Below are positions 27,854-37,845 of a DNA stretch of 64,000 nucleotides, in pieces. The DNA is from Herpetosiphon geysericola (GTDB lineage Bacteria > Chloroflexota > Chloroflexia > Chloroflexales > Herpetosiphonaceae): the NCBI RefSeq assembly GCF_001306135.1, contig NZ_LGKP01000021.1, positions 124,001 to 188,000 on the forward strand, in the 5' to 3' direction. A program made the position numbers and the translations under genes. Position 1 is the first letter of the stretch; each line of letters opens with the position of its first letter. Below the pieces are notes generated by a model. The model saw nothing but the letters and a program-made list of their open reading frames with translations, was not told the DNA's origin and did no database searches.

Positions 27854-27907
27854 CATGTTTGTGTCAGTATGGTATAGTTGGGCCGAATATCGACCAACAG
27901 GAAGCCT

Positions 27908-28702
27908 ATGCTGAACCAAGCTCTCGCTCAATTAACGCCACCATTGAAATGGGCCGGCGGCAAGCGCTGGCTCATTCCACGCTTAATCGATTATTGGCAA
28001 GCGTATCACGATCGGCCCTTGGTGGAGCCATTTGTTGGTGGTTTGGCTGTTGCTTTAGGCTTGCAACCGCAACATGCACTTTTGAATGATATTAATCAGC
28101 ATGTGATTAATTTTTATCATTGGTTGCAGCAAGGTTTGTTGATTGATTTTGAATTGCGCAATGATCAAGCGCTGTATTATCAATATCGTGATCAATTCAA
28201 TCACTTAATTCGAGCTGGCGAAACCCAAACCGCCCAGGCCGCTGGTTTATTTTATTATCTCAATCGAACTGGCTATAACGGGTTATGTCGTTTTAATCAG
28301 CGTGGTATGTTTAATGTGCCATTTGGGCGCTACAAACGCATTGGCTATTGCTACGATTTTGGCCATTATCGCGAAGTATTAAGCCAATGGCATTTTCAGC
28401 AAGGCCATTTTGCAGCGATTCAGCTGCCAGCAAATGCCTTTATTTATGCAGACCCACCCTATGATGTGCCGTTTCGCGCTTATAGTTCACAGGGCTTTAG
28501 TTGGTCAGAGCAAGTGCAACTGGCAGAGTGGTTGGCGGCGCATCGCGGGCCAGTCGTTGCATCGAATCAAGCAACTGAACGCATTTTGGATCTCTATCGG
28601 CAACTTGGGTTTCAGATTGAAATTTTGTCAGCGCCTCGCCGCATCGCCTGCAATGGCGACCGGCAGCCAGCCCTCGAAATGTTGGCCTTCAAAGGAGCTT
28701 AA
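27908..28702 (+). CDS. D12 class N6-adenine DNA methyltransferase (Dam-like)
   Basis: A 264-residue Dam/DpnM-type enzyme that transfers a methyl group from AdoMet to adenine in DNA. The AdoMet-binding motif is LKWAGGKRWL (about 15-24), a second segment is VEPFVGGLAVAL, and the catalytic motif is YADPPYD (DPPY). NRTGYNGLCRFNQRGMFNVPFG is the conserved central region. Relatives usually recognise GATC, which is inferred only. ATG 27908 has AGGAAG upstream; the frame is open from 27878. No restriction endonuclease is adjacent. The next gene starts two bases after its stop. Confidence 0.9.
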   Translation: MLNQALAQLTPPLKWAGGKRWLIPRLIDYWQAYHDRPLVEPFVGGLAVALGLQPQHALLNDINQHVINFYHWLQQGLLIDFELRNDQALYYQYRDQFNHLIRAGETQTAQAAGLFYYLNRTGYNGLCRFNQRGMFNVPFGRYKRIGYCYDFGHYREVLSQWHFQQGHFAAIQLPANAFIYADPPYDVPFRAYSSQGFSWSEQVQLAEWLAAHRGPVVASNQATERILDLYRQLGFQIEILSAPRRIACNGDRQPALEMLAFKGA

Positions 28703-29504: not shown

Positions 29505-32500
29505 ATGAGTATATCGTCTGCCTCAACGCCAATCGGCGACGTCTTGCAGCAAATTGCCCAACGTTTCGCCCAAAGCAGCCGCTCGCCCTTGTTGCGCAGC
29601 GGTGAATTAGCCTTGCCCGATGCCAGCACCCAGCCGTTGCCCTTAGCTCCTGAATTGGCGGTGGCATGGCGAGCTTTGTTGGGCGAGACTGGCTGGCCGT
29701 GGCAAGCAGAGGCGTTGGCAACTGTGCGGCGTGGTTTGGGCTTGGCCTTGGTTGCACCTGCGCCACTTGGCCCAGCCTGTTTGTTGCTCTTGGCCGCCGA
29801 GCATATTAGCGCCAATCAAGGCAGTTTGTTGTTACTCGCACCTGATGCAGCCAGCTTGCACGATTTGGCGCAAACTGCCAATAATATCGATGCTCTGCTG
29901 GGCGGCGGTTTTCCGCACCTTGTGGTTGAGCAAACCACCCGCCCACCGCATAGCCCGCCGCGGCTGATTTTAACCACGCCCACAACCTTGCATCAACGCA
30001 TGTTGCGCACCCATCATCGCGGTTGGTCGAATATGTGGCCGCAGTTGAGTGGCATTGTCCTGCCAGCCTTTGATCAAGCCAATAGCACCAGCTTCGGCCA
30101 TTGCCGTTGGTTGTTGCGGCGGGTCGAACGCTTGCGCCCGCGTGCCCGACCATTGACGCTCTACGCTAGCTTAGCGCCAGTCGCCGAAATTGATGAATTA
30201 TTGGCGCGGGTGTTTGATCATCTGCCGCCGCTGGTCTATGCCAATACTGCCCGCATTCCCTTGACGTGGGCATTGTGGAATGGTGGCGCGCAGCCAGTTG
30301 ATGCAGCGCTGAAATTGGCCCTCGCCTTGCGCCAAGCAGGCTTAAGTGTTCAGCTTGATGCACCCGATAACCTAGAACGGGCAATTTTGGCCCAACGCGG
30401 CGCAGCCCAAGGATTAAGTATTGTGCCACGCGCGGCAGCTCCATCCCATGTGTTGGTGATGTTGGGTGGCGTGAATGCAACCAGCCTGCCAAGTTTATTG
30501 GCGAGCGGCCATCGGGCAGTGGTGTTGGTCACCGATCAGTCGATTGCGGCCCAAACGGCATTGGCCCAACCTGCCTTGCTCACGCCCAATTTGCCGCCAG
30601 CCTTGCCAGTTGCTACCCAAAATAACTATATTAGCAGCGGCCATTTGCGCTGTGCCGCCGAAGAGCGACCGCTCCAGCAGAGCGAAATTAGCGCATGGGA
30701 AGTGAGCGATTTAGTCGAGCGCCTGACCCAGCGCAACCAATTGGCGCAACTGCCCGATAGCCCAACCTGGCAACCAGTCGCCAATTTGCAGCAGCGCAGC
30801 GATATTTACGCAACGCTGCATCCAACCACGATTAGCGATGTGCCAGTCCAGATCGTCGATCACGAAGGCACATTTTTGGCCGAACTCGATTCGGTGACGG
30901 TTGAGCGACGTTTGTTTAGCGGCGCGAGCGTGCTCGGCGGGCGGGTGGTTGGCTGGAACGATGATGGGTCGTTAAGCATACGCTTGCAGGATGCAGCCCC
31001 AACCTTGGCCGAGCATCGCTGTAGCGTCTCGGTGCGCGAGCATTTTGGCCAACGCCCGTTGGATGGCGCACGCGCCGAGATCGAACTAACGATTGGCCGC
31101 GTCGTAGTAACTGAGGAAATTGTGGCACGGCGCAGCCTTGCAGATGATGGCAGTCTGCGGCGCGTACCGTTCGAGCCACCGATTCAATTGCAGTGGAATG
31201 CTCCGGCTTTGTGGCTTGGCGCTCCAGAAGCAGGGGCTGGCTTGGGCGAAATTCTGCTTGGCGTCCTGCCATTGTTGCTGCGTTGCCAACCAGATGCCAT
31301 GGTCGCTTGCCTGAGCGACCAACAGCTATATTTGGTCGAAGCGCAGCCTGGCGGACGCGGCATTGTCGAGCAGTTGTATAGCCAATTTGAGGCCTGGCTG
31401 CATTTGGCTGGCTTGGCGGCGCGAACCATGAGCAACGACCCAATCTATGCCAGTTATGCGCAGGCCGAGTTACGTTGGCTCGAAAAGATTTTGGTGCCGC
31501 TGGCAGCGCCGTTGCGGGCTGATATGCCACCAGAACCAGCCCAAATTGCGCCGCCACGCGTCGAACGTGCCAGCCGCCAATCGATGGTGATTAGCACGAA
31601 CGAGTTGAATGCCCGCCGCCGTGGACGTGGCAATGTTTTTGCCTTGCCCCGTTCGTTGCCCAAACAGGGCGAGGCGGTCAAACGCCCAACGACTCCTTTG
31701 CCGAACCAACCAGCCTTGCCAGCCCAGCCGATGCGCTTGGCGGCTCAGCAACCGCCAGCAAGCAAACCAATTACCAACCAACGCCCAGCAGTGCGCAACG
31801 AAGCGCCGCCAGCACCGCCAGCGCCCGAAAAGGCCAAGCCAAATGTGACCCGTCCGCCGCGCCGCAAGGCCAGCGTTGGGCGTAATGAAGCGCAGCGTTC
31901 GACCCAGCCGTTGGTGCAGCCCAAAGCTGTTGCGCCAAGCAATCAGTTGCCACCAGAACGTGGTTCGGTGGTTGTGCCAGCGCCCAACCAGCCACCAGCT
32001 TACGAGCGGCCACCGTTTCAGCAACGCAACGCGCAGGAAAAACCTGCGGCCCAACGCCCAATCTCGCGCCCAGTTCAACGTGAGCAACAGCCGAATCAAC
32101 GGCCTGCTCCACGCGAAACCCAGCCCAATCAACGGCCAGCCCAGCGTGAGCAACAGCCAGCCCGACCGTATCAGCGCAATGATCAGCCGACCAAGCCGAT
32201 GCCACGCGAAACGCAGCCTAACCAGCGGCCAGTCCAGCGTGAGCAACAGCCAGCCCGGCCATATCAGCGCAATGAGCAGCCAACCAAGCCCATGCCGCGT
32301 GAAGCGCAGCCCAATCAGCGGCCAAATCAGCGTGAGCAACAACCCAATCAGCGCAATGAGCAACCAGCCAAGCCCGTGGAAGCCAACGCCGATCCACAGG
32401 CCATGCTCGAAAAAGCCCGCCGTTTGCGCGAACAGCGCGAAGCTGAGGCGCGGGTTGCCCAACTAATTACGCGGCCAAATCCTGCCAATCACAACGCTGA

Positions 32501-32702
32501 GCCAAGCGAATCACGCTTTAAACAAGGCGATCGGGTGCATTGCGTGCCCTATGGCGAGGGCGTGGTGCAAAAAACGCGCATTCGCGATGGCCGCGAACTA
32601 TTGCTGGTACAATTTCCAGAGCTTGGTGATCTCCGCGTTGATCCAGCGGTCAATGCTGTGCGCATTGTGCGCCCTGAGATTCAAGCCGAAGACGACGAAT
32701 AA
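29505..32702 (+). CDS. Catalytically degenerate MrfA/YprA-type helicase scaffold protein with Gln/Pro/Asn repeats
   Basis: A 1065-residue protein whose N-terminal 650 residues follow the MrfA/YprA DEAD-like helicase order. The P-loop position reads VAPAPLGPA (about 83-91) instead of GSGKT, the DEAH position reads IVLPAFD (about 184-190), and the SAT position reads YASLA. Non-catalytic landmarks survive: TTPTTLHQRML, FGHCRWLLRRVERL, NNYISSGHLRCAAEERPL and a DUF1998-like QPGGRGIVEQLYSQFE. Residues about 690-985 are low-complexity with 31-residue tandem repeats; the end (about 1003-1056) is a PcrA/UvrD-like tudor domain, KQGDRVHCVPYGEGVV. ATP hydrolysis is unlikely; a DNA- or protein-binding scaffold is inferred. 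Confidence 0.72.
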   Translation: MSISSASTPIGDVLQQIAQRFAQSSRSPLLRSGELALPDASTQPLPLAPELAVAWRALLGETGWPWQAEALATVRRGLGLALVAPAPLGPACLLLLAAEHISANQGSLLLLAPDAASLHDLAQTANNIDALLGGGFPHLVVEQTTRPPHSPPRLILTTPTTLHQRMLRTHHRGWSNMWPQLSGIVLPAFDQANSTSFGHCRWLLRRVERLRPRARPLTLYASLAPVAEIDELLARVFDHLPPLVYANTARIPLTWALWNGGAQPVDAALKLALALRQAGLSVQLDAPDNLERAILAQRGAAQGLSIVPRAAAPSHVLVMLGGVNATSLPSLLASGHRAVVLVTDQSIAAQTALAQPALLTPNLPPALPVATQNNYISSGHLRCAAEERPLQQSEISAWEVSDLVERLTQRNQLAQLPDSPTWQPVANLQQRSDIYATLHPTTISDVPVQIVDHEGTFLAELDSVTVERRLFSGASVLGGRVVGWNDDGSLSIRLQDAAPTLAEHRCSVSVREHFGQRPLDGARAEIELTIGRVVVTEEIVARRSLADDGSLRRVPFEPPIQLQWNAPALWLGAPEAGAGLGEILLGVLPLLLRCQPDAMVACLSDQQLYLVEAQPGGRGIVEQLYSQFEAWLHLAGLAARTMSNDPIYASYAQAELRWLEKILVPLAAPLRADMPPEPAQIAPPRVERASRQSMVISTNELNARRRGRGNVFALPRSLPKQGEAVKRPTTPLPNQPALPAQPMRLAAQQPPASKPITNQRPAVRNEAPPAPPAPEKAKPNVTRPPRRKASVGRNEAQRSTQPLVQPKAVAPSNQLPPERGSVVVPAPNQPPAYERPPFQQRNAQEKPAAQRPISRPVQREQQPNQRPAPRETQPNQRPAQREQQPARPYQRNDQPTKPMPRETQPNQRPVQREQQPARPYQRNEQPTKPMPREAQPNQRPNQREQQPNQRNEQPAKPVEANADPQAMLEKARRLREQREAEARVAQLITRPNPANHNAEPSESRFKQGDRVHCVPYGEGVVQKTRIRDGRELLLVQFPELGDLRVDPAVNAVRIVRPEIQAEDDE
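32070..32380 (+). repeat. In-gene tandem repeat (about 93-base unit)
   Basis: Within the degenerate helicase gene, the unit encoding REQQPARPYQRNxQPTKPMP plus RExQPNQRPxQ recurs two and a half times with few changes, giving a 31-residue period. Shorter QPNQRP units flank it. The reading frame is kept. Confidence 0.75.
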
Positions 32703-34740: not shown

Positions 34741-34812
34741 ATTGCATTGACATCAAGGAACGCGGCGTGCTATCGTTGCCACAGAGTTTCATGATTGTGG
34801 AGTGATCGTTGT

Positions 34813-35697
34813 ATGATTGCTTGTCCTGTCTGTAATGCGACCAACCAAACAGGGGCCTTATTTTGCGAAATGTGTGGGCATCGTTTGCCAACTGTGGCGG
34901 CGGCTGTCACCCCACCCAAAGCCGTTGCTGGCGGCATTCAATGCCCAACCTGTAAACATATTGCGACTGCTGGCGAGGCGTTTTGTGATGAATGTGGTAC
35001 GCCGCTGAATGTTGGAGTGGCTGCTGCACCCGCTGCCGCGCCAGTTGCGCCAAGCGTGCAGCCAGCGCCCCAGCCAACCTATCCAGCACCGCAGCCAATT
35101 GCCAACGCCGCCAGCCCAACCTGTCCAAGCTGTCGGGCAGCGGTTATTCCTGGCGAGGCATTTTGCGATAATTGTGGAGCTTCGTTGTTGGCTGGCGCTG
35201 TTGCTGCTCCCGCCGCTCGACCAGTTGCGCCCGCGCCGCAGCCAAGCTATACGCCGCCAGTCCAGGCTGCGCCAGTTGTGCCAGCAGCGCCAGTCTATAC
35301 GCCGCCACCAGCGCCAGTTACGCCCAAGCCGCCAGTTGCTGCCCCAATTGCTGCCGCGCCAGTTGGCATTCAATCGTTGGCAGGGTTTGTGCTCGTGACA
35401 GCGGCTGGCACGCGGATTCATCTTCCAGCCAAAGCTGAGATTGTGGTTGGCCGCGAAGATGCAGTTTCGAATAACTATCCAGATGTTGATTTGAACCCAC
35501 ATAATGGCTTGGCTGATGGTGTTGGCCGTCGCCATGCGCGAATTTTCGTTCGGGCAGGCGTGGTGCAACTTGAAGATTTGGATAGCACCAACGGAACAAC
35601 CGTCAATAAACAACGCTTACAAGCTCGCCAAATTGTTAACCTCAATGTTGGCGATGAAATTCGTTTTGGCCGATGTGTGTTGCAATGGCAACGCTAG
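34813..35697 (+). CDS. Triple zinc-ribbon and FHA domain protein
   Basis: A 294-residue protein. Three CxxC...CxxC ribbons lie at about 4-25 (CPVCNATNQ, FCEMCG), 45-65 (CPTC, FCDECG) and 103-122 (CPSC, FCDNCG). They are separated by Pro/Ala/Gln-rich linkers, and a C-terminal FHA domain occupies about 200-294. The FHA domain keeps IVVGRED, GRRHARI and LDSTNGTTVN, the phosphothreonine-binding residues. The frame starts at 34795, but GGAG before ATG 34813 sets the start. The next gene, a pseudokinase, begins 15 bases after the stop, so both likely act in one phospho-dependent assembly. Confidence 0.85.
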   Translation: MIACPVCNATNQTGALFCEMCGHRLPTVAAAVTPPKAVAGGIQCPTCKHIATAGEAFCDECGTPLNVGVAAAPAAAPVAPSVQPAPQPTYPAPQPIANAASPTCPSCRAAVIPGEAFCDNCGASLLAGAVAAPAARPVAPAPQPSYTPPVQAAPVVPAAPVYTPPPAPVTPKPPVAAPIAAAPVGIQSLAGFVLVTAAGTRIHLPAKAEIVVGREDAVSNNYPDVDLNPHNGLADGVGRRHARIFVRAGVVQLEDLDSTNGTTVNKQRLQARQIVNLNVGDEIRFGRCVLQWQR

Positions 35698-35712
35698 CGT
35701 GATGTAGCAGCT

Positions 35713-37845
35713 ATGAGTGGACAGGCCATGTTTCAACAAGGACGCTACCAAGTACGCAACGAGCTGTTTCGCGATGAATGCGGCGTGATGTACTTGGCGG
35801 TCGATGGCAAGATGGCAGGGCGCGAAGTTGCCTTACGCCAACTCAATGATGGTGTTTTAGATCCAGCTTCGTTGCAGCGTTTAGCCCAGTTAAACCAAGC
35901 TGCCCTGCCTTCGGTCTATGATCTGTTTGAGGAGCATGGCCAGCGCTATTTGGTGCTTGAGTATCCACGGGGCCAAACTTTGGCCGATGTGGCGCTCGGG
36001 CCGCGTTTGCGCGAAGGCGTGGTGCTGGCTTGGGCCAAGCAAATTGCCGAAGGCTTGCGCTATTTGCATAGCCAAGGCTTTGTCCATGGCGATATTCAGC
36101 CGCAAAATATTGTGCTGCAAGATGGCCGCCGCATCAAATTGCTTGGCGGTTTTCCAGCAGGCTGCCCTAAAAATGCAGGCTCGCGCTATTCAGCCCCCGA
36201 AATTTGGAGCGGCGCAGCTGCCACCCCAGCCTCGGATATTTATGCCTTGGGCGCGACGCTGCACCATTTGCTGACCGGAACCGACCCCAACACCCAACCA
36301 TTGATGGCCTTTGCCCCGCCTGATGTGCGGCGGCCTGATCTTTCGCCAGCGGTTTCGAGCGCGATAGTCAAAGCGCTCAGCCAACAGCCACAACAACGCT
36401 TTGCTACTATTGAGCAATTTGTGGTTGCCTTGAGCCAAACGAGCAGCACCCATGAATCAGCTGGCGATTTGCCAGTGATTGGCTTTACGCCCTCGATGTT
36501 GCCCAGCACACCTGCCGATGGCCCAACCCAACGCTACGTGCCCTCGGAAAGCTCGCCGATTCCGGTGCCGCCAGGTCGGGGCAATACTGCTCAATACGAT
36601 CAGGCGATGCTTGAGCAATTGCTCTTGCCCGACCGCGATCTTGGGCCAGCGCCCTCGGCCTTGCCGCAACGCCCAGCCGAAAACAACAACCGCACAGGCT
36701 TGATTGTGCTCGGGGTGTTTATTGGCTTAGCCTTATTGGCTGGGGCATGGTTTATTTTCAAGCCCAAGAGCAATGCGTTTGTGAATGCAACCGAAATTGC
36801 CAACAATGGTTTGCCAACCGTTACCCGTGATGAAGGGATTTTGCTGAGCGATAGTGCCAAAACTGCTACTGCGTTGGCGGCAATTCCGCCTGCAACCCAA
36901 ATTCCGACGCTTGATGTGCCGCGAGCTACCGCCGATGCAATTCAGACCTTTACTGCTGCAACCGAAGCTGCCTTTAACGTCGATTTAGAAGCACGCTATC
37001 TGCGGGGTACGGCCTACGAAGAAACCGGCCAATATGGCTTGGCCTTGAGCGAATACGACGAAATTTTGCGCCAAGACCCATTTTATAAAGATACCCAATC
37101 ACGGCGCGACCGAATTAAGATTTTTCTTGATGCAACCGTTACTGCAGATGTGCAACAAACCACGGTTGCGGTGGCAACGGCAACTGCGGTTGCCCAACCA
37201 ACTGCAACCGCCTTGCCACCAACGCCAACCGCCACGCCAGTTGGCCAGATTGTTGGCGATACCTTCAATGGCAGCACGCTTGACCCACGCTTGTGGGCTG
37301 GCGAAAGCCGCGATGGCAGCATTCAGCTGAATAACGGTGAATTGCAACTGGCTGCGACCAATGCTAATTGTTATCCAGTCGTGCGCACGATTACCGATAC
37401 GCTCTTTCCTGCCAACAACTTTACGCTCAACATTACCTTTCGCTATTCCGATGTGACGGCCTTAGGCACTGGCTTTATGCTGGCCGATGCGATGGCTACG
37501 CCGTGTGGCGAAACTGATCGGGCTGGCACAAGTTGGAGCGGCGTTTGGCAGGATGAAAATCAAGGCCTGATTGTCGAATTCCATCGTGACCAAACAGCAG
37601 ATACTGAGCTGAAAGATATTCGTTTGCCCTATACCAACGGCCAAATTGATACAACCGAACACAACTTGACGATTCAACAGCGTAATGGCGAGCAAACCTT
37701 CATTCTCGATGGCAATACGCTATTTACCGAAAAGATTGGAGCGCAGCCGAAAGTGTTGTGGTTTGGCAATCCGAGTCGCACAGCAATCGGCGCACCGTGG
37801 ACAGTCCTGAATATTCTGAGCGTTGATTTGCGCGAAGAACCATAA
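35713..37845 (+). CDS. Membrane-anchored Ser/Thr pseudokinase with extracytoplasmic domain
   Basis: A 710-residue protein. Residues 11-250 follow the Hanks kinase fold (YLVLEYPRG, AEGLRYLHSQ, YSAPEIWSG, SDIYALGATLHHLLTG), but key residues are missing: the VAIK lysine is Arg42, HRDxKxxN reads H125-G-D-I-Q-P-Q-N132, and the DFG site reads Gly145-Gly-Phe. The glycine loop is also degenerate. A transmembrane helix lies at about 333-353. The outer part has a short TPR-like segment, a Thr/Pro linker and a concanavalin/LamG-like domain (about 515-710). Kinase activity is improbable; a sensor or scaffold partner of the FHA protein is inferred. Confidence 0.8.
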   Translation: MSGQAMFQQGRYQVRNELFRDECGVMYLAVDGKMAGREVALRQLNDGVLDPASLQRLAQLNQAALPSVYDLFEEHGQRYLVLEYPRGQTLADVALGPRLREGVVLAWAKQIAEGLRYLHSQGFVHGDIQPQNIVLQDGRRIKLLGGFPAGCPKNAGSRYSAPEIWSGAAATPASDIYALGATLHHLLTGTDPNTQPLMAFAPPDVRRPDLSPAVSSAIVKALSQQPQQRFATIEQFVVALSQTSSTHESAGDLPVIGFTPSMLPSTPADGPTQRYVPSESSPIPVPPGRGNTAQYDQAMLEQLLLPDRDLGPAPSALPQRPAENNNRTGLIVLGVFIGLALLAGAWFIFKPKSNAFVNATEIANNGLPTVTRDEGILLSDSAKTATALAAIPPATQIPTLDVPRATADAIQTFTAATEAAFNVDLEARYLRGTAYEETGQYGLALSEYDEILRQDPFYKDTQSRRDRIKIFLDATVTADVQQTTVAVATATAVAQPTATALPPTPTATPVGQIVGDTFNGSTLDPRLWAGESRDGSIQLNNGELQLAATNANCYPVVRTITDTLFPANNFTLNITFRYSDVTALGTGFMLADAMATPCGETDRAGTSWSGVWQDENQGLIVEFHRDQTADTELKDIRLPYTNGQIDTTEHNLTIQQRNGEQTFILDGNTLFTEKIGAQPKVLWFGNPSRTAIGAPWTVLNILSVDLREEP

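Follow-up and report, generated by a model that had tools for sequence, protein, structure and literature searches.

The locus considered here raises the question of why a long gene of the MrfA/YprA helicase family should be kept open when the motifs of its ATPase motor appear to be gone. The gene lies in a 64,000-nucleotide stretch of the Herpetosiphon geysericola genome, analysed as a whole and called the window below, where it occupies positions 29505–32702 of the forward strand. Its reading frame starts with ATG and runs uninterrupted for 1065 codons, and the 1065-aa product is described here as an MrfA-type pseudohelicase with a linker and a Tudor tail. A first-pass annotation had already called the frame intact and had quoted short peptides for its conserved blocks and replaced motifs (VAPAPLGPA, IVLPAFD, YASLA, TTPTTLHQRML, FGHCRWLLRRVERL, NNYISSGHLRCAAEERPL, and QPGGRGIVEQ), all of which are present in the translation and the frame is indeed open throughout; the linker and Tudor domain (residues 664–1065) were absent from that account. 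An Rfam search of the window matched no RNA element, and no repeats were found in the gap upstream of the gene.

By sequence, MrfA/YprA is the only PDB family found for the pseudohelicase. A phmmer search of the PDB gave YprA/MrfA (6znp) as the sole match with an E-value of 2.8e-8, while a profile of 27 orthologues reached YprA/MrfA at 6.4e-48 in two stretches corresponding to both helicase halves. The AlphaFold2 model of residues 1–685, computed from the 27-row alignment, has a pLDDT of 88 and a pTM of 0.88, and its best four Foldseek matches are MrfA crystal chains (6znp/6znq/6zns, E 3e-33 to 1e-23, with 3.3e-33 for 6znp). In VIA-align, MrfA scores Z 26.6 across model residues 5–663, followed by Lhr (Z 21.0) and, behind it, relatives of Hel308/Brr2. 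The same residues follow the RecA1-RecA2-WH-OB-MZB order of the MrfA fold. Since the VIA-align match covers residues 5–663, the whole MrfA body is present, well beyond the conserved words noticed at first, and the MrfA-like fold can be delimited as residues 1–663 (29505–31493, forward strand). Family models respond more faintly: in Pfam, WHD_HRQ1 (E 1.7e-5) falls just under the cut-off and MZB (E 0.0015) under it, and the best NCBIfam match, TIGR03817 (E 1.1e-11), is far below the cut-off of that model. The profile, Foldseek, and VIA-align matches to MrfA rule out an unrelated fold, so that the original family assignment stands.

When the protein is aligned together with intact homologues, the eroded stretches fall exactly on motifs I, II, and III, where the P-loop, DEAH box, and SAT motif had been read as replaced. 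At the motif I (Walker A) site, residues 82–92 around VAPAPLGPACL (29748–29780), GKT is missing and TATASGKT has become APAPLGPA; in motif Ia, FPTKALA has become LAPDAASL. At the motif II site, residues 183–199 (GIVLPAFDQANSTSFGH, 30051–30101), DEAH has given way to PAFD with the trailing GH retained, and at the motif III site, residues 219–229 (LYASLAPVAEI, 30159–30191), SAT has given way to SLA. The following RecA2-like region (residues 251–365, 30255–30599) is reduced, the segment of motif IVa being deleted, motif IV also gone, and motifs V (TNALELGVDIG) and VI (QQAGRAGR) erased. The first-pass annotation had also named the DUF1998 zinc cluster of the family; this part does not hold, as the MZB-like region (residues 581–663, 31245–31493) retains PGGxG and lacks the four cysteines, CPC...CPxC being missing in the window protein and CxC...CxxC in all 27 aligned orthologues. 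The losses thus extend beyond those first noticed to Ia, IV, IVa, V, VI, and the zinc cysteines. Motor loss is common to 27/27 aligned orthologues, with replacements that are lineage-specific. Pattern scans of 40 distinct orthologue ORFs found neither a P-loop (GK[ST]) nor GRxGR, and a DExH box stands at the motif II site in none of the 40, the word DEPH occurring off-site in two copies. At the level of sequence, the loss of the motor motifs is shown to be complete.

The rest of the body has fared differently. Of 180 columns whose identity in intact relatives reaches 85%, those kept at 90% or more in the orthologues number 0/54 at motor sites versus 27/126 elsewhere (Fisher p 5e-5), and orthologue entropy is 2.17 bits in motor-site columns versus 1.78 bits in the remainder; erosion is aimed at the motor. 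Retained features include H199, R206, R209, several tryptophans, PGGxG, and the winged-helix pattern NxYxxxxxLxCAAxExPL, whose signature NNYISSGHLRCAAEERPL at residues 373–390 (30621–30674) is seen in the sub-threshold Pfam match and contains residues invariant in orthologues (N373, C383, A384, A385, E387, and P389). The motif Ib region (residues 152–166, PRLILTTPTTLHQRM, 29958–30002) is likewise kept: P159 is invariant, T158, L162, and H163 are conserved in at least 90% of orthologues, and the same P, L, and H occur in intact relatives. Motif Ib commonly contacts DNA in SF2 helicases, and DNA binding is plausible because this region is retained. The DNA-binding or scaffold role first suggested from the letters may well apply to this protein.

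Downstream of the body, residues 664–1003 (31494–32513) form a linker whose composition, dN/dS, and low pLDDT at its start (residues 667–685 of the AlphaFold2 model) mark it as disordered. It is rich in Pro, Arg, Gln, and Ala, with a pI of 11.6 in Herpetosiphon, and ranges from acidic to basic in other families. Tandem Repeats Finder detects in it an in-frame 93-bp tandem repeat (31 aa, 2.5 copies; window 32109–32341), and protein length is 1063–1078 aa among Herpetosiphon species. Some orthologues of family f2, namely L021 (G018) and L023 (G015), have long linkers that are acidic, not basic; in L021 a stop precedes any Tudor domain, and L023 is masked there.

The C-terminal residues 1004–1059 (32514–32681) are modelled as a five-stranded barrel with a pLDDT of 90–97. 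The eight top-ranked Foldseek chains belong to CdnL or are Tudor domains of PcrA/UvrD; Mfd and CarD follow closely, and the best match is 5dma (E 6.5e-4). VIA-align puts 5dma (Z 8.7), 7egs, 9dqs, and 7egt on top; of these, 7egs shows the Tudor domain bound to the RNA polymerase (RNAP) lobe and 7egt shows it bound to UvrB. Searching the organism's own genome with the Tudor profile gave one other match, the C-terminus of PcrA (E 9.6e-6). The sequence signal is fainter, with Pfam PcrA_UvrD_tudor at 0.0075 in two members and a PDB profile search with the tail at E 0.2. The domain is found in 36 of 40 distinct orthologues; of the four without it, three are masked there or stop at the end of a locus or contig. 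The tail is thus confidently predicted to adopt a PcrA/UvrD-type Tudor fold, which gives the best hint of what the protein does.

Like the tails of PcrA/UvrD (5dma, 7egs, 7egt, 6yi2, 9dqs), it is a five-stranded barrel that follows a long disordered linker, and the F/YxxGDxV...GxGxV pattern is found in the window protein too; unlike in PcrA/UvrD, however, the body is an SF2 pseudohelicase rather than an SF1 helicase, and the His and Lys used for RNAP binding are replaced. In PcrA, a helicase body is followed by a disordered linker and a Tudor domain that binds RNAP β and UvrB (PMC8318588; PMC5397179), H681, W684, K712, and L714 being required for RNAP binding (PMC5397179). Aligned to H681 and W684 are an invariant Cys and a Tyr (Tyr/Phe/Trp/His across orthologues), and aligned to K712 and L714 are a non-Lys residue (Leu in the window copy) and Val or Ile, with an invariant Cys-x-Pro-(Tyr/Trp/His/Phe)-Gly replacing the PcrA contact pattern. 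Because the RNAP-contact residues are only partly kept, the Tudor partner may differ from that of PcrA. The organism's own UvrB (L174, G000:C12:228585-230537) carries the exact PcrA docking loop VDPLTGEIL, although its own PcrA already accounts for this motif; a search of its RpoB for the strict helicase interaction motif gave no strict copy. A Tudor-like C-terminal end also occurs in an intact-motor MrfA helicase from another Chloroflexota family (L106, G373:C93:17681-20455, 926 aa), whose tail matches the Tudor profile weakly (15.8 bits). An intact motor combined with such an end suggests, rather than proves, that the tail preceded motor loss, and the architecture of L106 is possibly ancestor-like for the pseudohelicase.

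The reading we favour, to which a probability of roughly 55% is given, is that of an ancient MrfA/YprA-type pseudohelicase kept as a binding protein, a Tudor-tethered, non-motor clamp or adaptor. In the ancestor of the order, an MrfA/YprA-type SF2 helicase would have ceased to bind and hydrolyse nucleotide and would have shed its zinc cluster, and the protein would afterwards have been kept for binding. Its body, comprising the winged-helix and OB/MZB-like modules and the motif Ib region, probably grips nucleic acid or nucleoprotein without translocating, and the long flexible Arg-rich linker would carry the PcrA/UvrD-type Tudor docking domain. The latter may dock on a partner, most likely RNAP or the excision-repair protein UvrB, so that, where transcription has stalled or DNA is damaged, the protein would serve as a clamp, an adaptor, or a competitor without motor activity; we infer nucleic-acid binding, the partner, and the pathway alike. 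The more specific idea of a non-motor DNA clamp docked on RNAP or UvrB, possibly one that couples transcription to repair as a third factor alongside Mfd and PcrA, is offered tentatively and with more doubt than belief. Mfd was matched in 31/31 genomes searched, and the organism itself has both Mfd and PcrA. As Mfd is present throughout the order, the pseudohelicase does not replace it, and the notion of a substitute for absent Mfd was rejected.

Among the alternatives, the one that survives best, although it is unlikely, is a transcription factor resembling CarD/CdnL, in which the Tudor domain would bind RNAP β and the body would contact DNA of the promoter or upstream of it, repair playing no part. 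Such a factor would agree with the CdnL, CarD, and Mfd RID domains among the Foldseek matches and with a weak Pfam match of CarD_TRCF_RID in 5/31 members; however, the PcrA/UvrD Tudor scores better by both sequence and structure, and the body belongs to a family of repair helicases.

Somewhat less likely still is a role within a hetero-oligomeric helicase as its regulatory or inactive subunit, whose dead body would pair with an active helicase and read DNA structure, as AddB of AddAB does (PMC4824097); PcrA and Mfd are available in the genome. The nearest active paralogue is an intact MrfA/TIGR03817 helicase. The order's own TIGR03817 DEAH-box helicases (L031–L040) belong to the same family as the pseudohelicase, but their motor and CPC...CPxC cluster are intact, they form a separate clade of patchy distribution, and a Tudor tail was not found in them. 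When intact MrfA was sought with the order's active MrfA, it was found in only 16/60 relatives and in none of Herpetosiphon or family f4, and hence an intact paralogue is not an obligate partner; obligate partnership was rejected, the paralogue being missing in most genomes. Nor does any motor gene stand beside the pseudohelicase in the 20 loci examined. Clustering of the neighbours in these loci, about 8 kb either side, revealed no recurrent partner gene and no conserved neighbourhood that would point to a pathway. MrfB was found neither among the adjoining window ORFs nor as a recurrent neighbour over the 20 loci, and PF13482 domains of the YprB type are encoded on other contigs of this genome. 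As judged by the same clustering, no recurring partners of the kind known from the defence neighbourhoods of YprA systems (DISARM, Druantia, ARMADA) were seen in the 20 loci, which gave no operon or defence-island clue. In the window itself, the gene at 27878–28702 (+), two genes upstream, contains PPLKWAGGKRWLIP and ADPPYD and resembles adenine DNA methyltransferases of the Dam type. Downstream, at 34795–37845 (+), a zinc-ribbon/FHA-like protein precedes a Ser/Thr-kinase-like one, and the two may form a phosphosignalling pair.

A degenerate yet working ATPase with an unusual nucleotide site is very improbable. Copies from family f4 do keep relics near motif I (for example, VRKTL in L010) and have AHRY where motif II would be, but no orthologue pairs a Walker A Lys with a Walker B Asp-Glu or with arginine fingers, and in every aligned orthologue IVa is deleted and nothing is left of motifs V and VI.

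The distribution and evolution of the gene accord with the selection, not decay, proposed by the first-pass annotation. An orthologue is present in 59 of 60 relatives, the lone exception being a genome that is 76% complete. In a survey of 400 genomes of the phylum, all genomes of the order score at least 350 bits among the matches listed, while the best score outside the order is 145 bits and the homologues examined there have intact motors. The loci of H. giganteus DSM 589, H. llansteffanensis, and H. aurantiacus DSM 785 are 94–98% identical over the first 685 residues; the contig scan, which matched only Herpetosiphon, reaches close relatives only. In the tree, the 27 pseudohelicase copies form a single clade supported at 100/100, with a stem length of 1.66 changes per column, that is nested among the intact Chloroflexota homologues L093 and L106; the branch uniting the three has a support of 96/99, and that putting L093 nearer to the pseudohelicase clade only 83/55. 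Within the genus, dN/dS is 0.056 for the whole gene; by part, it is 0.041 in residues 1–663, 0.050 at the sites once occupied by ATP motifs, 0.080 in the linker, which evolves fastest, and 0.021 in the Tudor domain. Values for fourteen genes nearby lie between 0.020 and 0.132, and the figure of about 0.04 equals or undercuts most of these intact neighbours. The pseudohelicase is thus shown to be retained across the order under purifying selection. A decaying pseudogene or a sequencing artefact in this genome alone, which motif loss by itself might suggest at first sight, is ruled out for practical purposes by the dN/dS values, the 59/60 retention, and the intact frames of 40 distinct orthologues, none of which has intact GKT/DEAH motifs beside which this copy would look decayed.

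With MrfA/YprA of Bacillus subtilis (6znp/6znq/6zns), the window protein shares the fold of residues 5–663, the NxYxxxxxLxCAAxExPL pattern, the motif Ib region, and PGGxG; it differs in lacking the ATPase motifs and the four zinc cysteines, in its shortened RecA2, in the extra linker and Tudor tail, and in having no adjoining MrfB. To our knowledge, bacterial pseudohelicases are few (Deinococcus radiodurans PriA, AddB). D. radiodurans PriA is similar in being a bacterial DNA-repair helicase that has lost its motor across a lineage, but it belongs to another helicase family and keeps a PriA-like role in replisome reloading, and we know of no Tudor domain in it. Its DNA binding has been retained, as established by experiment (PMC4504706). 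AddB likewise illustrates how a helicase-like fold can be reused for recognition instead of motion (PMC4824097), but it needs its active partner AddA, whereas no dedicated partner is seen here. The literature search found no report of a pseudohelicase in the MrfA/YprA family; a 2025 survey of YprA helicases describes loss of the zinc cluster in Dpd, and searching it by term turned up no motor-dead member or Tudor fusion (PMC12458937).

Almost all sampled genomes of the order carry the gene, and most are without an intact MrfA of the kind searched for. Because it is near-universal where intact MrfA is mostly absent, these bacteria offer a way to study the work of an MrfA scaffold deprived of its motor, and the Tudor tail would offer a direct handle on the partner, be it RNA polymerase, UvrB, or another protein.
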